Below are positions 9,241 through 56,400 of a stretch of 64,000 nt of DNA, in pieces. The position numbers and the translations under genes are program-made. Source of the stretch: Phormidium tanganyikae FI6-MK23 (GTDB taxonomy: Bacteria; Cyanobacteriota; Cyanobacteriia; Leptolyngbyales; Leptolyngbyaceae); the NCBI GenBank assembly GCA_019359175.1, contig JAHHHU010000004.1:124001-188000 (forward strand), read 5' to 3'. A model generated the notes under the pieces. The model had not been told where the DNA came from. It was given only the letters and a program-made list of their open reading frames with translations, and searched no databases. Each line of letters begins with the position of its first letter. Position 1 is the stretch's first letter.

Positions 9241-10389
9241 ATGAAAATCACAATTCTGACGACTGTTTCTACGCCTTACTTTGTCGGTCGGCTGACCAAA
9301 TTTTCGCAACTGTTTCCAACCGAATCACTCCACTCGATCGAGCTTGGTAGAACGTCTTCGGTCTATGCGTGGAAAGCAAATTACGACCCGGTTTCCTATC
9401 ATCGCTGGGTGCTAAGCGAAAAGACAGCAGAAACAGAAACGACGCTGAATTTGATCCGATCGCTTTTACAGGTGTTAAATCAGATTCGACCGGATGCAAT
9501 GGCAATCTCAGGCTATGCCCTTCCCGCGATGATTGCAGCCTTGTTCTGGTGCAGTTGGAACCGCATTCCAACCGTGATTTTTTCAGACTCTAAAGCCGAC
9601 GATCAGCCGCGATCGTGGTGGAAAGAACTCCCGAAACGATCGCTTTTAAGCAGATATCAAGCAGCATTGGTCGCTGGAAAACCGCATCGTCGCTATCTGA
9701 ACCAGCTTGGAATGCCAGAAGCGGCGATGTTTTCTGGATATGATGTGGTCGATAACGATTGCTTTTATCCCGATCGAATTAAAGCTTTGCCAAATCGGTT
9801 TCCACAACCTTTCTTTCTGTCGATCAATCGATTTGTAGCAAAAAAGAACTTAATCAATCTGCTGCTTGCCTATGCTATCTACCGAGATCAAGTTGGATCA
9901 TCGGCTTGGGATTTGGTACTGTGTGGCGATGGTGAATTGCGATCGCAGATCGAAGCGGAAATCGATCGACTAAAGTTATCTAATCAAGTTCATCTGACTG
10001 GATTTCTCGAACAGTCTGAGATTCTGCCGCTTTATGCTCACGCTAGCTGCTTTATTCATGCAAGCTTCCAAGAACAGTGGGGACTAGTGGTGAATGAAGC
10101 GATGGCAGCCGCTCTACCCGTGATTGTGTCCAAGCACTGTGGTTGTTTTGAGGATTTAGTCATCGAGGGCGTGAATGGATTTGGCTTTGAGCCGGGATCA
10201 GTTGATCAATTAGCAGCCCGCATGGTTCGGATTAGTGCGAATCCAGATGACGTTGCTGCGATGGGACAAGCTTCATTGCAGCAGATTCAGAAGTTCTCGA
10301 CCCGCCATTTTGCTCAAGGATTGTATGATGCAGTTCAGTATGCAGTGGTTCAATCTCAACGCGCTCAACCAAAACCCTTTAGTCTTTGA
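9241..10389 (+). CDS. Glycosyltransferase family 4
   Basis: 382-residue GT-B enzyme. The second domain contains FFLSINRFVAKKNLINLLLAY, LVLCGDGELRSQIEAEI and the classic donor-binding segment SFQEQWGLVVNEAMAAALPVIVSKHCG with the E-x7-E-like arrangement. The frame is open to 9106 inside the methyltransferase. The ATG at 9241 is four bases after that stop and gives a normal N-terminus (MKITILTTVSTPYF). It is probably cytosolic or membrane-associated and acts in repeat-unit assembly. Its stop overlaps a possible TTG start of the next gene. Confidence 0.85.
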   Translation: MKITILTTVSTPYFVGRLTKFSQLFPTESLHSIELGRTSSVYAWKANYDPVSYHRWVLSEKTAETETTLNLIRSLLQVLNQIRPDAMAISGYALPAMIAALFWCSWNRIPTVIFSDSKADDQPRSWWKELPKRSLLSRYQAALVAGKPHRRYLNQLGMPEAAMFSGYDVVDNDCFYPDRIKALPNRFPQPFFLSINRFVAKKNLINLLLAYAIYRDQVGSSAWDLVLCGDGELRSQIEAEIDRLKLSNQVHLTGFLEQSEILPLYAHASCFIHASFQEQWGLVVNEAMAAALPVIVSKHCGCFEDLVIEGVNGFGFEPGSVDQLAARMVRISANPDDVAAMGQASLQQIQKFSTRHFAQGLYDAVQYAVVQSQRAQPKPFSL

Positions 10390-10397
10390 GAAGTATT

Positions 10398-11648
10398 GTG
10401 AAAGTTTTAATCGTCGTTCCTGCGATCGCACCGCTTTATGGAGGAACATCCAAACTCGCGATCGAACTTGCTGAAGCGCTCGGTGAAAGCGGAGTTGAAG
10501 TGGATTTGATCACAACCGATGCGGACGGTAAGCATTCGCTAGATGTGCCGATCGAGAATTGGATTGATCAAGGCGCTTACCGAATTCGCTACTTTGCTCG
10601 ATCGATTCGCAACGAGTTTAAGCTGAGCTACTCTCTAACCCGTTGGCTCTGGCAGCATATTCAAGATTATGATGTGGTTCATTTAATTTCGTTGTTTACG
10701 TATCCGATCGCGATCGCTCATTGGCTTTGTCGGCTTCGAGGCATTCCTTATGTGATCAATCCACAAGGAATGTTAGAGCCTTGGGCAATGGAATATAAAG
10801 CCTGGAAAAAGCAGATTTACTACAATCTGATTGAAAAGCCAGCCTTGCAGCGCACCAGTACGATTCAGATGCTTTCTCAAGCAGAAGCGGACGGGATTCG
10901 ATCGCTGAATCTTCAAGCTCCAATCTTGATTTCACCGAATGGAATTGATCAGCGAGAGTTTGAGACTCCGATCGAGGCTGAAATCTTTTACCAACAGTTC
11001 GAGTCACTGCGCGGCAAAACACTAATTTTGTTTCTCGGTCGCGTTGATCCGAAAAAAGGACTTGATTTGTTAGCGCCTGCTTTTTCCCAGGTGCATCAAC
11101 AATTTCCGAACACTCATCTGGTGATTGCAGGACCAGACAACATTAATTTCCAGCCTACTGCTGAACACTACTTTGAACAATCAGGGTGTCGAGAAGCGGT
11201 AACATTTACAGGAATGCTAACTGGAGCATTAAAATATGCGGTGCTTTCTGCCAGTACGCTTTATGTTGCTCCTTCTTATTCCGAAGGCTTCAGTCTGTCT
11301 GTGCTAGAAGGCATGGCAGCGGGGCTTCCTTGCGTGATTACGACAGGGTGCAATTTTCCAGAAGCGGGTAATGCTCAAGCTGCGACGATCGTTGATCCTG
11401 ATGCGGATCAGATTGCTTGCGCCTTGATCACATTGTTGCTGAATCAAGACACAGCCCAGCAAATGGGCGATCGCGCCCGTCACTTAATCTTTGATCACTA
11501 TACCTGGGCTCAAATCGCGGCTCAATTGATCCAAACCTACTCAGGGATTTCCCATGTCACACCCTGTCTTCAGCGAACAGCCTCATGTTCAGACGCACGA
11601 GACCAAGATGCTCACGGAAATTACGCCTCTCATTCTCACCTACAATGA
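10398..11648 (+). CDS. Glycosyltransferase family 4
   Basis: 416-residue GT-B enzyme with PAIAPLYGGTSKLAIELAEAL as acceptor loop, ILFLGRVDPKKGLDLLAPAF opening the donor domain and APSYSEGFSLSVLEGMAAGLPCVIT as the donor-binding motif. I chose the GTG at 10398 because it gives the family-typical N-terminus MKVLIVVPAI. A TTG at 10386, overlapping the previous stop by four bases, would add four residues and is the alternative. The last 30 or so residues look unlike the family and run through the start region of the next gene, which overlaps by 41 or 95 bases depending on its start. Confidence 0.82.
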   Translation: MKVLIVVPAIAPLYGGTSKLAIELAEALGESGVEVDLITTDADGKHSLDVPIENWIDQGAYRIRYFARSIRNEFKLSYSLTRWLWQHIQDYDVVHLISLFTYPIAIAHWLCRLRGIPYVINPQGMLEPWAMEYKAWKKQIYYNLIEKPALQRTSTIQMLSQAEADGIRSLNLQAPILISPNGIDQREFETPIEAEIFYQQFESLRGKTLILFLGRVDPKKGLDLLAPAFSQVHQQFPNTHLVIAGPDNINFQPTAEHYFEQSGCREAVTFTGMLTGALKYAVLSASTLYVAPSYSEGFSLSVLEGMAAGLPCVITTGCNFPEAGNAQAATIVDPDADQIACALITLLLNQDTAQQMGDRARHLIFDHYTWAQIAAQLIQTYSGISHVTPCLQRTASCSDARDQDAHGNYASHSHLQ

Positions 11649-52129: not shown

Positions 52130-52339
52130 ATGTCTTCAATTTTTATAAAAGCGATTCCACTTCTCATCGGGCTTTTAGTGACGACGGCTTGCCAAAATTC
52201 GTCTGGTGTAAGCCAATCCTCCGCCGCGATCGTTTCCACTTCATCGGTTCAAGCGGCTCCAGAGACTCAATCGAATCCGTCGATCGCAGTCGTTCCGAAA
52301 GGTGATTTATCGATTGATCTGGAAAAAGAATGGATTTGA
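52130..52339 (+). CDS. Small putative lipoprotein
   Basis: 69 residues, not recognised. Residues 1-21 are hydrophobic (SIFIKAIPLLIGLLVTTAC), ending in a near-lipobox TTAC with Cys21. The rest is Ser/Ala/Val-rich and low in complexity (SSGVSQSSAAIVSTSSVQAA) and ends in GDLSIDLEKEWI. No close ribosome site, so expression is uncertain. It lies 68 bases after the prk terminator and may have its own promoter. Confidence 0.5.
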   Translation: MSSIFIKAIPLLIGLLVTTACQNSSGVSQSSAAIVSTSSVQAAPETQSNPSIAVVPKGDLSIDLEKEWI

Positions 52340-52500
52340 GCGATCGCGCTAATAAATTGTGATTTACTAATCATTCCGATAAGTTCTGCTTCAGAATCTG
52401 ATGCAATCTGAGGTAGCGCTTTAATTTATAATGATTGCTTAAGAATCAGATATTTATCATCGAACACAGCGCCCTGCGTGAATTCTTCCAGTAGTTGGCG
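52330..52500 (-). pseudogene. CBS-domain-like remnant
   Basis: Reading minus from 52500: VFDDKYLILKQSL, then TAA (52427-52429), then IKALPQIASDSEAELIGMIS and KSQFISAIA. The second part resembles the end of a CBS domain (L-P-x-x-D-x-x-x-x-L-I-G-M-I-S-K-S-x-x). No start codon is seen. It overlaps the end of the small lipoprotein gene on the other strand. Probably the trace of a lost gene, or chance similarity. Confidence 0.25.
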
Positions 52501-52537
52501 AACTGTAAATCTGTAAATCATTGAGGTGATCGCGACG

Positions 52538-53209
52538 ATGGCAACCAGCCGTGGAAATCAAACCAATCGCAGGGTAAACAATCGACGCACCGCAGCGAAA
52601 GTGACAGGAACCCCTGAGAGTTCGGCTCCAACGGCTGAAACTTCACCGATCGCAGATGCTCCTAACCCAAAAGCCAGCGAATCGATCGCAAACGAACAGG
52701 TTAACCCCCCGATTTCGGAGCCTGCTCCGGAAACTGATCCCCAAACCCCATTCACAGAACTAACCCCAAAGGAATCTCCTATGAGTAAGTCAGACGTAAT
52801 CGACGCAACGGCAACGCCCGCAGAAGGAAAAGGAAGCGCGCTTGAGATTCTTAGCCTTCCCAGTCTCTCGGCTGGAAATCGCCCCGTGATGTCGGATGAT
52901 TTTGAAGTGGCAGGCACGATTCAGGCAGCGGGAATTCGCCCGATCGAAGCGAGTCATCTTGCAGTGTACGGCACGATCTTAAACGGTCGTCCGATTATGT
53001 CGAGCAGTTTGAGAGTTGCTGAAATGCTTCCGGGCAATCGTCCGATCTTCTACAGTGATTTTCACTCAGTAGAAGGTTCAGAAACCTTGGGGCGACCCGT
53101 AATGGTAAGTGACCCAGGATTGCTATCCGCTGACAGGCACATGGGAGACCGTCCAGTGTTTTCTAATGATCTTGATGACTCCACCGCGCTGATGGGTTTT
53201 ATCGATTAA
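52538..53209 (+). CDS. RPV/RPI-repeat protein of unknown function
   Basis: 223 residues. The first 25 residues are basic (MATSRGNQTNRRVNNRRTAA). Residues 26-80 are rich in Pro, Thr, Ser and Glu and likely disordered. The C-terminal half holds about six copies of a 17-22-residue unit with consensus [G/N]xRP[V/I]xxSD/Sxx: NRPVMSDDF, IRPIEASHL, GRPIMSSSL, NRPIFYSDF, GRPVMVSDP, DRPVFSNDL. It ends in ALMGFID. No signal or membrane segment. I recall similar repeats in other cyanobacterial proteins but know no function. GAGGTG lies about nine bases before the chosen ATG; GTG 52526 is an alternative. Confidence 0.75.
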   Translation: MATSRGNQTNRRVNNRRTAAKVTGTPESSAPTAETSPIADAPNPKASESIANEQVNPPISEPAPETDPQTPFTELTPKESPMSKSDVIDATATPAEGKGSALEILSLPSLSAGNRPVMSDDFEVAGTIQAAGIRPIEASHLAVYGTILNGRPIMSSSLRVAEMLPGNRPIFYSDFHSVEGSETLGRPVMVSDPGLLSADRHMGDRPVFSNDLDDSTALMGFID

Positions 53210-53233: not shown

Positions 53234-53263
53234 GGGTGCTTCTGAAAGGGAGTACCCATTTTT
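53234..53263 (+). terminator. Intrinsic terminator after RPV-repeat gene
   Basis: GGGTGCT pairs with AGTACCC (one G-U pair) around a ten-base loop, followed by ATTTTTA. It begins 25 bases after the stop at 53209. Confidence 0.65.
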
Positions 53264-53328: not shown

Positions 53329-56300
53329 ATGACTGCCACTCTTCCGACTCAATACGACGCTGCAACCACTGAAGCGAAATGGCAAAAGTTTTGGGAGGAG
53401 AATCAGGTCTTTAAAGCTGATCCGAGTCAACCGGGTGAGCCGTATTGTGTAGTGATTCCGCCGCCGAATGTGACGGGTAGCTTGCACATGGGTCATGCGT
53501 TTGAGAGTTCGCTGATCGATGTGTTGATTCGGTATCAGCGGATGTTGGGTAAAAATACGCTGTGGTTGCCGGGAACGGATCACGCCAGTATTGCAGTTCA
53601 GACGATTCTGGAGCGGCAACTGAAAGCGGAAGGGAAAACCCGTGATGACTTGGGACGGGAACAGTTTTTAGAACGCGCTTGGAAATGGAAGGCGGAATCG
53701 GGCGGTACGATCGTCAATCAACTTCGACGGTTAGGTGTGTCGGTGGATTGGTCGCGCGAACGGTTCACGATGGACGAAGGGCTTTCAACTGCGGTGTTGG
53801 ATGCGTTTGTCAAACTGCACGATGAAGGGCTAATTTATCGCGGTAATTATTTGGTCAACTGGTGTCCGGCAAGTCAATCGGCAGTGTCGGACCTCGAAGT
53901 TGAAAACAAAGAAGTTGACGGGAATTTGTGGCATTTCCGCTATCCGATCATGGGTCAGGATGGCTTTGTTGAAGTGGCGACCACGCGACCGGAAACGATG
54001 TTGGGCGATACTGCGGTGGCGGTGAATCCGAATGACGATCGCTATAAGGATCTCATCGGCAAAACCTTAATGTTGCCGCTCGTCTATCGCGAAATTCCCA
54101 TCATTGCAGATGATCACGTTGATCCGAGTTTTGGAACGGGTTGCGTGAAAGTAACTCCTGCTCACGATCTGAACGATTTTGAGATGGGTCAGCGTCATAA
54201 GTTGCCGTCGATCAATGTGATGAACAAAGACGGCACGATGAACGAGAACGCTGGAGAATTCCAGGGACAAGATCGCTTCGTCGCGCGGAAAAACGTGGTG
54301 AAGAAGTTGGAAGAAGAAGGCTGTCTCGTGAAGATTGAGCCTTACAAACATACGGTTCCGTATAGCGATCGCGGAAAAGTCCCGATCGAACCGCTGCTCT
54401 CGACTCAATGGTTTGTCAAAATTAAGCCGCTCTCTGATTTCGCTCTGGCATCCTTAGATGATCAAGATTCTCCGCATTTTGTCCCGGAACGCTGGACGAA
54501 AGTTTATCGCGATTGGTTAGTCAGCCTAAAGGATTGGTGTATTTCGCGCCAGTTGTGGTGGGGGCATCAGATTCCAGCTTGGTATGCGATCAGTGAAACG
54601 AACGGTGAAATTACCGATTACACGCCATTTATCGTGGCGCGATCACAAGAAGAAGCGAAACAAAAAGCGATCGAGCAATTTGGCGAAAATGTTCAAATCG
54701 AGCAAGATCCTGATGTTCTCGATACTTGGTTCTCTTCCGGCTTGTGGCCCTTTTCAACGTTGGGCTGGTCGGATACTGAAGCCGAAGATTTCAAACGCTA
54801 CTATCCCACTGCAACCTTAGTGACAGGATTCGACATCATCTTTTTCTGGGTTGCCCGAATGACGATGATGGCGGGACACTTCACCAAACAAATGCCGTTC
54901 AAAGATGTCTACATCCACGGACTGGTGCGGGATGAGAACAATAAGAAGATGTCGAAATCGGCAAATAACGGCATCAACCCGCTGATTTTGATTGATAAAT
55001 ATGGAACGGATGCGCTGAGATACACCTTGATTCGGGAAGTCACAGGCGCGGGTCAGGATATTCGGATCGCCTACGATCGCAAAACCGACGAATCCGAAAC
55101 CGTTGAAACCTCGCGCAATTTCACCAACAAACTGTGGAATGCGTCGCGCTTTGTGATGCTGAATTTGGGCGAGAAGACCCCTGCTCAGTTGGGTGCGCCT
55201 GAGAATTTGGAATTAAGCGATCGCTGGATTCTCTCTCGATTCAATCAAACCACGCGCCAAGTCCGCGACTACATCGATAACTATGGATTCGGTGAAGCCG
55301 CAAAAAGCCTCTACGAATTCATTTGGGGCGATTTCTGCGATCAATATATTGAGCTAGTCAAATCCCGACTTCAAGACGAAAACTCTCCAACCCGTCTCGC
55401 AGCGCAGCAAACCCTCGCTCATGTGCTGGAAGGAACGCTTAAACTCTTGCATCCTCTCATGCCACACATCACCGAGGAAATTTGGCATACTCTGACGCAA
55501 ACTCCCGAAACGGCTCACAATGCTCTAGCACTTCAGCGCTACCCCGAACCCGATACGGCGCTAATCGATCCAACTTTGGAGCAGCAATTTGATCTCATCA
55601 TCAACTCGATCCGCACCATTCGGAACCTAAGAGCGAGTGCCGAAATCAAACCGGGTGCAAGAATCATGGTCGCACTTCAAACCGAAGACGAGCAGGAAAA
55701 GCAAACATTGCTGACAGGACAGTCCTATATTAAGGACTTGGCAAGAGTTGAAACGCTCACGATCGCTGGAAAAAATGATGTTCCCGCGCTGAAATCATCG
55801 ATCGATTCGGATCAACCGATTTTAGCGATCGCGCTCGACACCGCTGGAACCTACATCACCAAACATCAAAAGATCCTTCTTTCCCTTCTGCTAATTGGCT
55901 CGATTCTTTTTGCCCTCAAACTTGCCGCTTCGACCCTGACCGCCGTTCACGAAATCCCACTCCTCGCAACGCTCCTAGAAATCGTGGGCATCAGCTATAC
56001 GATTTGGTTTACAAAAGAGCGCCTCTGGGAGACAAGCGATCGACAAACTTTCTTCAAGCAGGTAAACCAATTCAAAACCGAAGTGATTGGAGAATCGAAA
56101 CCCCCTGCTCCATCTGCGCCCCCTGAACCCGTAGACGATGCTCAAACGATCGTTGGTGTCACCGGAACCGTGAAAATTTCGATTCCTCTTGCCGGACTGA
56201 TCGACCTCGAAGCGCTCAAAGCCAAGAACGAAAGGGACTTGAAAAAACTAGAGGCAGAAATTCAAGCGCTCGGCGGTCGGTTGAGTAATCCGAAATTTGT

Positions 56301-56400
56301 CGATAAAGCGCCGCCTGAGGTGGTGCAATCGACTCGTGAGGCACTTGCCGAAGCAGAAAAACAGGCAGAAATTCTGAAATCGAAGCTCGATCGCCTATAA
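53329..56400 (+). CDS. valS: Valyl-tRNA synthetase with CAAD membrane domain
   Basis: 1023 residues; E. coli ValRS has 951. It charges tRNA-Val in the cytosol or at membranes. The HIGH box is HMGH (residues 53-56), KMSKS lies near residues 540-544, [17 protein letters not shown] is the catalytic-domain motif, and the anticodon domain runs to about residue 780. A CAAD domain is inserted at about residues 840-925, between anticodon domain and C-terminal coiled coil (about 955-1023). It has two membrane helices, [19 protein letters not shown] and [19 protein letters not shown], then [21 protein letters not shown] anchors synthetases to thylakoid membranes in some cyanobacteria. Confidence 0.95.

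Follow-up and report, generated by a model that had tools for sequence, protein, structure and literature searches.

What is a protein for that carries a series of RP[VI] motifs behind a basic N-terminus? The question is raised by a gene in the window, by which we mean the whole 64,000-nucleotide stretch of Phormidium tanganyikae FI6-MK23 analysed here. The gene is a single open frame on the plus strand that runs from an ATG to its stop codon and encodes 223 amino acids (Table 1); an in-frame GTG at 52526 is a possible alternative start, but it overlaps the ribosome site. Downstream lies a terminator-like hairpin (fold z = -2.5), one having been found where 1.1 were expected by chance, a count that is not above chance. 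The first-pass annotation, made from the letters alone, had taken this gene to be real and separately expressed, and the open frame, the GAGG ribosome site and the hairpin, qualified as above, bear this out. The upstream leader is conserved across the six of eight genus members that were aligned, and a TATAAT common to all six is likely the -10 element, which would give a leader of about 100 nt; a consensus promoter scan did not report this site and returned promoter-like sites on the opposite strand only. Across 75 upstream sequences there was no clear enrichment of NtcA, HLR1, CRP, LexA, Fur or CcmR/NdhR motifs, and a single HLR1-like variant was found against 0.1 expected.

Table 1. Features of the RP-repeat gene and its product, in window coordinates.
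Feature	Coordinates	Strand	Basis
Candidate -10 element, TATAAT	52427..52432	+	same in 6/6 aligned genus members
Ribosome site GAGG, long form	52523..52526	+	duplex energy -6.9 kcal/mol
RP-repeat protein, long form, 223 aa	52538..53209	+	ORF and homologues
Basic N-terminal box, residues 1-22, MATSRGNQTNRRVNNRRTAAKV	52538..52603	+	residues 1-20 conserved in genus
Pro/Ser/Thr/Glu-rich linker, residues 23-80, fast evolving	52604..52777	+	pN 0.37-0.54
AAAGGAA, ribosome-site-like, inside the ORF	52768..52774	+	duplex energy -5.8 kcal/mol
Candidate short form (142 aa), start at ATG 52781	52781..53209	+	ribosome-site-like sequence precedes ATG
Unit 1, GNRPVMSDDFEVAGTIQAA	52874..52930	+	unit alignment
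Unit 2, GIRPIEASHLAVYGTIL	52931..52981	+	unit alignment
Unit 3, NGRPIMSSSLRVAEMLP	52982..53032	+	unit alignment
Unit 4, GNRPIFYSDFHSVEGSET	53033..53086	+	unit alignment
Unit 5, LGRPVMVSDPGLLSADRHM	53087..53143	+	unit alignment
Terminal unit, GDRPVFSNDLDDSTALMGFID	53144..53206	+	unit alignment and family alignments
C-terminal tail LMGFID; family consensus LMG[YF][LI]D-COOH	53189..53206	+	family alignments
Terminator-like hairpin, then T's	53234..53257	+	hairpin scan and fold test

The product was first described as about six RP[VI] repeats of 17-22 residues behind a basic N-terminus. There are exactly six, while none of 200,000 random rearrangements of these residues had more than four; the units follow the pattern GxRP[VI]xxSxLxV and start at residues 113, 132, 149, 166, 184 and 203, a regular series indeed, with a slightly tighter range of spacings (19, 17, 17, 18 and 19) than had been stated. 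The first 30 residues hold six K/R against one D/E, as expected, and the protein ends DDSTALMGFID at the stop codon. A consensus of 260 family units reads L-P-G-N-R-P-[IV]-x-A-S-x-L-x-[VI]-x-x-T, with a spacing of 19 in 183 of 261 cases and spacings of 17-20 coexisting, and the most constant part of the family is the C-terminus, GNRP[IV]ASNEIDDxxxLMG[YF][LI]D. Among 97 members, with some genes counted twice, a basic stretch of 20 residues with a net charge of at least +3 was present in 67 and not found in 30, and the repeat part was acidic in 90.

Purifying selection acts strongly on the repeats but leaves the linker ahead of them free to vary. In comparisons with seven congeners, dN/dS was 0.07-0.14 for the repeats (six of seven pairs, the remaining one being uncomputable through saturation) and 0.38-0.63 for the linker (five of seven, two being saturated), and pN was 0.04-0.22 over residues 1-20 versus 0.37-0.54 over residues 21-80. 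When the six window units were compared with those of seven chosen proteins, each with six units, the same-numbered unit was the best match in 38 of 42 comparisons; the units are therefore old and have kept their identities between species, which upholds the early view of them as selected rather than recently duplicated.

The first reading overlooked a putative second start inside the frame. A ribosome-site-like sequence precedes the ATG equivalent to 52781 in all eight genus members (-5.8 to -9.5 kcal/mol), while the ATGs within their repeat parts are all preceded by sites of -4.7 kcal/mol or weaker. An AGGA/GGAG-like stretch is also kept in distant relatives (L009, L010, L012, L014, L015, L017, L018 and L021), where the encoded residues differ, and in L020 the corresponding ATG is the first of the gene (-10.6); the internal sequence is weaker in L011 and L013, and L016 has no such ATG. 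Because the site occurs throughout the genus and the stretch persists in distant relatives, a short form is likely, and the genus would then make two isoforms, the short one lacking the basic N-terminal box.

To place the protein, we relied on profile and database searches. The window protein matched no Pfam family, and its best NCBIfam score, 9.9 bits, lay below the cut-off of 875; 17 diverse members gave nothing above the Pfam cut-offs, the nearest being MBG_3 (E 0.0016, one member) and SMP (E 0.079, one member), and MBG_3 in another family member scored 13 bits against a cut-off of 25. The PDB held no relative, and a match to DfoC (E 0.062) was taken as chance, as was one of the type-2 paralogue described below to PF09156 (E 0.0045, 16.8 bits against a cut-off of 25). 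PHROG matches were single and weak, a phage collection and viral contigs gave no relative, and a search of a literature library, in part by presumed locus tags, found no paper on the family. The homologues across cyanobacteria that the first-pass annotation anticipated are nevertheless abundant: 22 of 23 relatives in the same genus or family match the window protein (G010 does not), and in an even sampling of the class, a 17-row profile found matches (E 1e-3 or better) in 228 of 289 genomes, counting any form and type 2 included. In a draw from the phylum 99 of 292 match at E 1e-4, every one of them in the window's class. Among the 20 listed of the 61 non-matching class genomes, 13 belong to f2, which we take to be Cyanobiaceae, four to f16, presumably Gloeomargaritaceae, and three to f1/g4. 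Relatives thus occur in about four of five sampled class genomes, yet none of the libraries searched models the family. Named relatives account for 71 loci and include Picosynechococcus PCC 7117, Crocosphaera watsonii WH 8501, Leptothoe and Roseofilum; 44 of these loci were aligned with the window (alignment A3) and 36 entered a second alignment (A5), the protein sequences of L035, L048, L074, L080 and L087 being missing or partial in the family set. Several genomes named by handle below we assume to be known strains: G036 Gloeobacter violaceus, G051 BP-1, G052 S. elongatus PCC 6301, G055 G. lithophora, G094 JA-3-3Ab, and G492/G493 UCYN-A.

Some Leptolyngbya-like genomes carry a divergent type-2 form, with IDGNRPI units and the end [YF][IMV]D. 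Type 2 was also the form found on plasmids, in eight records that are all from Nostocales; the plasmid copies (L137-L144) are very regular and acidic, with IDGQRPI units and C-termini such as DYID or GYMD. Two loci labelled Gracilibacteria and Chloroflexaceae (L054 and L071) carry a cyanobacterial-type copy with neighbours as in cyanobacterial loci; since these neighbours belong to cyanobacterial clusters, the contigs are probably misbinned cyanobacterial DNA.

The tail, likewise overlooked at first, can be followed beyond the multi-unit proteins. Profile A7, built from the final 72 positions, matched all seven f16 genomes (E 6e-7 to 2e-5), while 16 f2 genomes gave two hits only (E 0.05-0.09). 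Six f16 genomes, G055 among them, encode a one-unit mini-protein, which in G055 ends VVMGRPVAPNQVDPPMGDLMGYLD; G089, also of f16, encodes two proteins, one with four RPV units and one with a single unit and the end MIGYLD. Such variation in unit number, down to one unit plus tail in six Gloeomargarita-like genomes, suggests that one unit with tail can be enough. Exceptions to the tail are L059, which ends LMTFL, G036, which ends LISFD, and G094, which has none; the G094 copy (L168, frame from 7935, 146 codons) has five units and ends GNRPIEASPLKVLR.

The same tail appears on another kind of protein in two Gloeomargarita-like genomes, a group that is sister to plastids. In G104, an 89-aa protein (profile A7, E 0.01) ending RRPVAPHPPADNDQLMGFLD overlaps the end of a ParA-type ATPase gene by 4 nt, and G055 has the orthologous pair with the same 4-nt overlap, the ATPases being 83% and the partners 44% identical; the G055 partner ends EDLMGYLD. 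The ATPase-partner pairs lie at L312 2736-3874 and L219 8244-9262. The G055 search covered 2.0 of 3.05 Mb, with no such pair in the first 1.2 Mb, and within the part searched the tail pattern was found only in this partner and in the mini-protein. Redundant loci totalling 3.8 Mb contain 45,724 ORFs of 40 or more codons. The ending [LMI][MLI]G[YFW][LIMV]D is present in 179 of them, and 178 of these have RP[IVT] in their last 60 residues by pattern count (the G104 partner included, in two loci), the sole one without an RP motif being the G055 partner. The ATPase matches Soj and other ParA chains at E 2e-46 to 1.5e-38 versus 3e-26 for the solved McdA. Its partner, without a Pfam match above cut-off or a PDB match, looks like a protein with a basic start and a ribbon-helix-helix-like middle; we know of no description of this pair. 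A common tail also offers a handle for a direct localisation test of the family.

The reading that we favour, while holding it somewhat short of probable, is that of a largely disordered, multivalent docking protein, an adaptor or linker, that serves photosynthetic, CO2-fixing life. Each unit would be a short linear motif that takes an extended form on a folded partner, several units would add avidity, and the terminal acidic-aromatic tail may be the essential docking peptide. The basic N-terminus of most members would add an electrostatic contact of its own, and initiation at the internal ATG would yield a form without it. Judging from the losses described next, the partner would belong to the CO2-fixing, photosynthetic life of beta-type cyanobacteria, and the tail on the ParA-system partner hints that it may dock proteins on positioned cargo. 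The scaffold or multi-site binding protein first suggested is kept as the best general description, with short docking motifs in place of a repeat fold. As a disordered scaffold the protein is ordinary; what is unusual is how common it is within a single photosynthetic class, with no paper on it in the literature searched, and its loss along with photosynthesis.

This loss, missed in the first reading, is seen in family f29, where 44 of 50 genomes match and G492, G493, G523, G522 (87% complete), G504 (85%) and G497 (78%) do not; G522 has no match, yet its RuBisCO is intact. In all six symbiont genomes that lack intact RuBisCO and a full-length PSII core gene, the RP-repeat gene is absent or decayed; in G493 a 347-codon frame matches only the first half of the PSII core model. 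G388 and G415 each retain a remnant with four in-frame stops in the profile match; the G415 copy was also counted at five stops, and rbcL of G415 is a fragment. In G477, of the same genus as these two and with rbcL in pieces, the frame is still open, but the Met of the old start, the Arg of two of four RP motifs and the tail are gone. Profile searches found no trace of the gene in G523, G492 and G493, the latter two of 1.4-1.5 Mb. The neighbouring uvrB is full length and free of stops beside the remnants in G388, G415 and G477, and in the related genomes G292 and G521 the RP-repeat gene is intact. By Table 1 of PMC5638926, G388 is the E. turgida spheroid body, G415 that of R. gibberula, and G292 is PCC 8801; genus label, size and broken rbcL suggest that G477 and G523 are likewise spheroid bodies. 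A further genome, G142, seemed at first to lack both RuBisCO and the gene, but was set aside: a 24,396-codon frame in it was read as a masked stretch, and its PSII genes are intact. The pattern across the six symbionts ties the gene to a life of photosynthesis or CO2 fixation, with general genome reduction as the caveat. If a link to CO2 fixation is true, the protein would be a seemingly unassayed part of the photosynthetic cell, present in laboratory strains (two copies in G052).

Genome reduction removes many genes, and uvrB is a single, thin control, which weakens the symbiont loss as evidence. The gene could instead serve free-living life generally, in stress, the nucleoid or the cell cycle, and its loss would then be ordinary reduction, a possibility that we regard as credible, if doubtful. 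It would fit the f2 genomes listed, which are photosynthetic yet without the gene, and the RHH-like middle of the tail-bearing ParA partner, which hints at DNA. It would also fit the gene counts of the two published symbionts, given in Table 1 of PMC5638926 as 1,671 and 1,720 versus 4,367 in PCC 8801. Against it stands the R. gibberula symbiont, in which the RP-repeat copy and rbcL are both broken while, according to the same source, nine of ten chlorophyll genes are without apparent damage. Wide retention across the other sampled families also speaks against so general a role.

The docking reading takes the units to act as motifs rather than as a fold. AlphaFold gave mean pLDDT values of 54.8 for the window protein (45 rows) and 51.0 for the very regular L047 (36 rows), both from shallow alignments, which limit this test; values were mostly 45-70 and reached the 80s only briefly, within a single short stretch, and the sole region of the window protein with a block mean above 70, in two consecutive blocks, is at about residues 151-170. 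The regular repeat fold on which the first-pass annotation had let its case depend was thus absent from both models. Unit spacing nonetheless has a solenoid-like side: the dominant spacing of 19 is accompanied by hydrophobic residues at +2, +4, +7, +9, +13 and +15 after the Arg (98, 73, 91, 95, 67 and 69%), and each 19-residue unit could be one rung of a small beta-solenoid or fibre with G-x-R-P at the turn, formed perhaps only in an oligomer. Known beta-solenoid repeat proteins share units of about 19 residues and alternating hydrophobics, but no confident fold is predicted here, the spacings are mixed, one to three units in some members are few for such a fold, and no PDB relative or Pfam repeat family above cut-off was found; we consider a solenoid unlikely. 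A short-linear-motif array appears likelier, since six f16 genomes keep one unit, the linker of L066 carries two additional free copies of PLPGNRPIASN, and no fold is predicted.

Among known adaptors, the docking protein that we favour most recalls McdB, the adaptor of the carboxysome-positioning ParA-type ATPase McdA (PMC11321042, PMC8262871). According to these papers, McdB is disordered, of low complexity, multivalent and missing from alpha-cyanobacteria, traits that the RP family appears to share. McdB is also often charged at its N-terminus, for which the RP family gives a mixed picture, 67 of 97 members having a basic patch; acidic and aromatic residues fall within its last five to ten positions, as in the RP consensus IDDxxxLMG[YF][LI]D. 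The same papers give R[VI]WPD as the end of alpha-McdB and Y/F in McdB-like proteins of other microcompartments. Where present, the basic N-terminus recalls the McdA-binding end of McdB. Unlike McdB, the RP family has Y/F-[LI]-D in its tail instead of the invariant Trp, and tandem RP units; none of the tails read ends in or near W. A Walker A scan of 214 loci of at least 3 kb (many overlapping, some with flanks of 1.5 kb) found no ParA adjoining RP-repeat genes: the one gene with a hit beside it was that of the tail-bearing G104 partner (L211, L219), the G055 pair having been found separately, and a hit about 4 kb away in L139 reads like NifH. As the defining Trp and the gene adjacency of McdB are both missing, the RP family is McdB-like in mode at most.

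RuBisCO linkers such as EPYC1, CsoS2 and the CcmM repeats offer a second likeness, in that motif arrays on one chain cross-link a folded partner, as the RP units may do; the RP family has no family or PDB match to any of these linkers. Nine f2 genomes with one RbcS-type hit each lack the RP-repeat gene, and the positives tested have CcmM-type repeats. RuBisCO with CcmM-type RbcS repeats also occurs where no copy was detected (G211, G230 and G238 of g4, G187, G296, which is 85% complete, and G400), which rules out a strict beta-carboxysome marker; G010 and G141 have the type-2 paralogue only. A carboxysome link is possible but unproven. In its most specific form, which we think distinctly improbable, the units and the LMG[YF]LD tail would be a new carboxysome- or RuBisCO-docking code of beta-cyanobacteria, namely a ParA-independent, multivalent, McdB-like adaptor in most sampled lineages, reduced to one unit in most Gloeomargarita-like genomes, where the same tail sits on a ParA partner, and made in long and short forms in the window's genus.

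Gene neighbours give less direction. Crude gene calling over four ORFs on either side of the gene at the 71 named loci turned up no neighbour that is conserved throughout, and only clade-specific ones recur: uvrB (13 hits), prk (9), petH (8) and rplU/rpmA (5), the names being read from sequence. G052 has copies of 199 and 103 aa, one of which lies about 7 kb from rbcLS; the second, 103-aa copy (L165 9885-10196) is followed without a gap by a gene for a membrane protein (10197-10862) that we take to be CCB-like, CCB standing for cytochrome b6f assembly. In two Leptolyngbya-like genomes the type-2 paralogue (L167 9339-9776, L170 8549-8977) is divergent from atpB-atpE-like genes. Together with genes reading as petH and prk near the window copy, these positions might speak for a part in assembling the thylakoid electron chain; such a role is very unlikely, because the neighbours vary between clades and the gene is present in Gloeobacter violaceus (G036), which has no thylakoids. 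To a multi-core precursor peptide, cut or modified, we give almost no credence despite the leader-like N-terminus and tandem units, because the most constant part is the C-terminal tail and not a cleavage site, and the lack of a conserved neighbour means that no conserved modifying enzyme stands beside the gene.

In the window itself, the RP-repeat gene lies between a short lipoprotein-like ORF and valS. The former, immediately upstream (52130-52339, plus strand), encodes 69 amino acids with the lipoprotein-like start LLIGLLVTTACQ; the latter (53329-56400, plus strand) has a membrane-segment-like insertion ahead of its C-terminal coiled coil, and this insertion presumably resembles the CAAD insertions of cyanobacterial tRNA synthetases.
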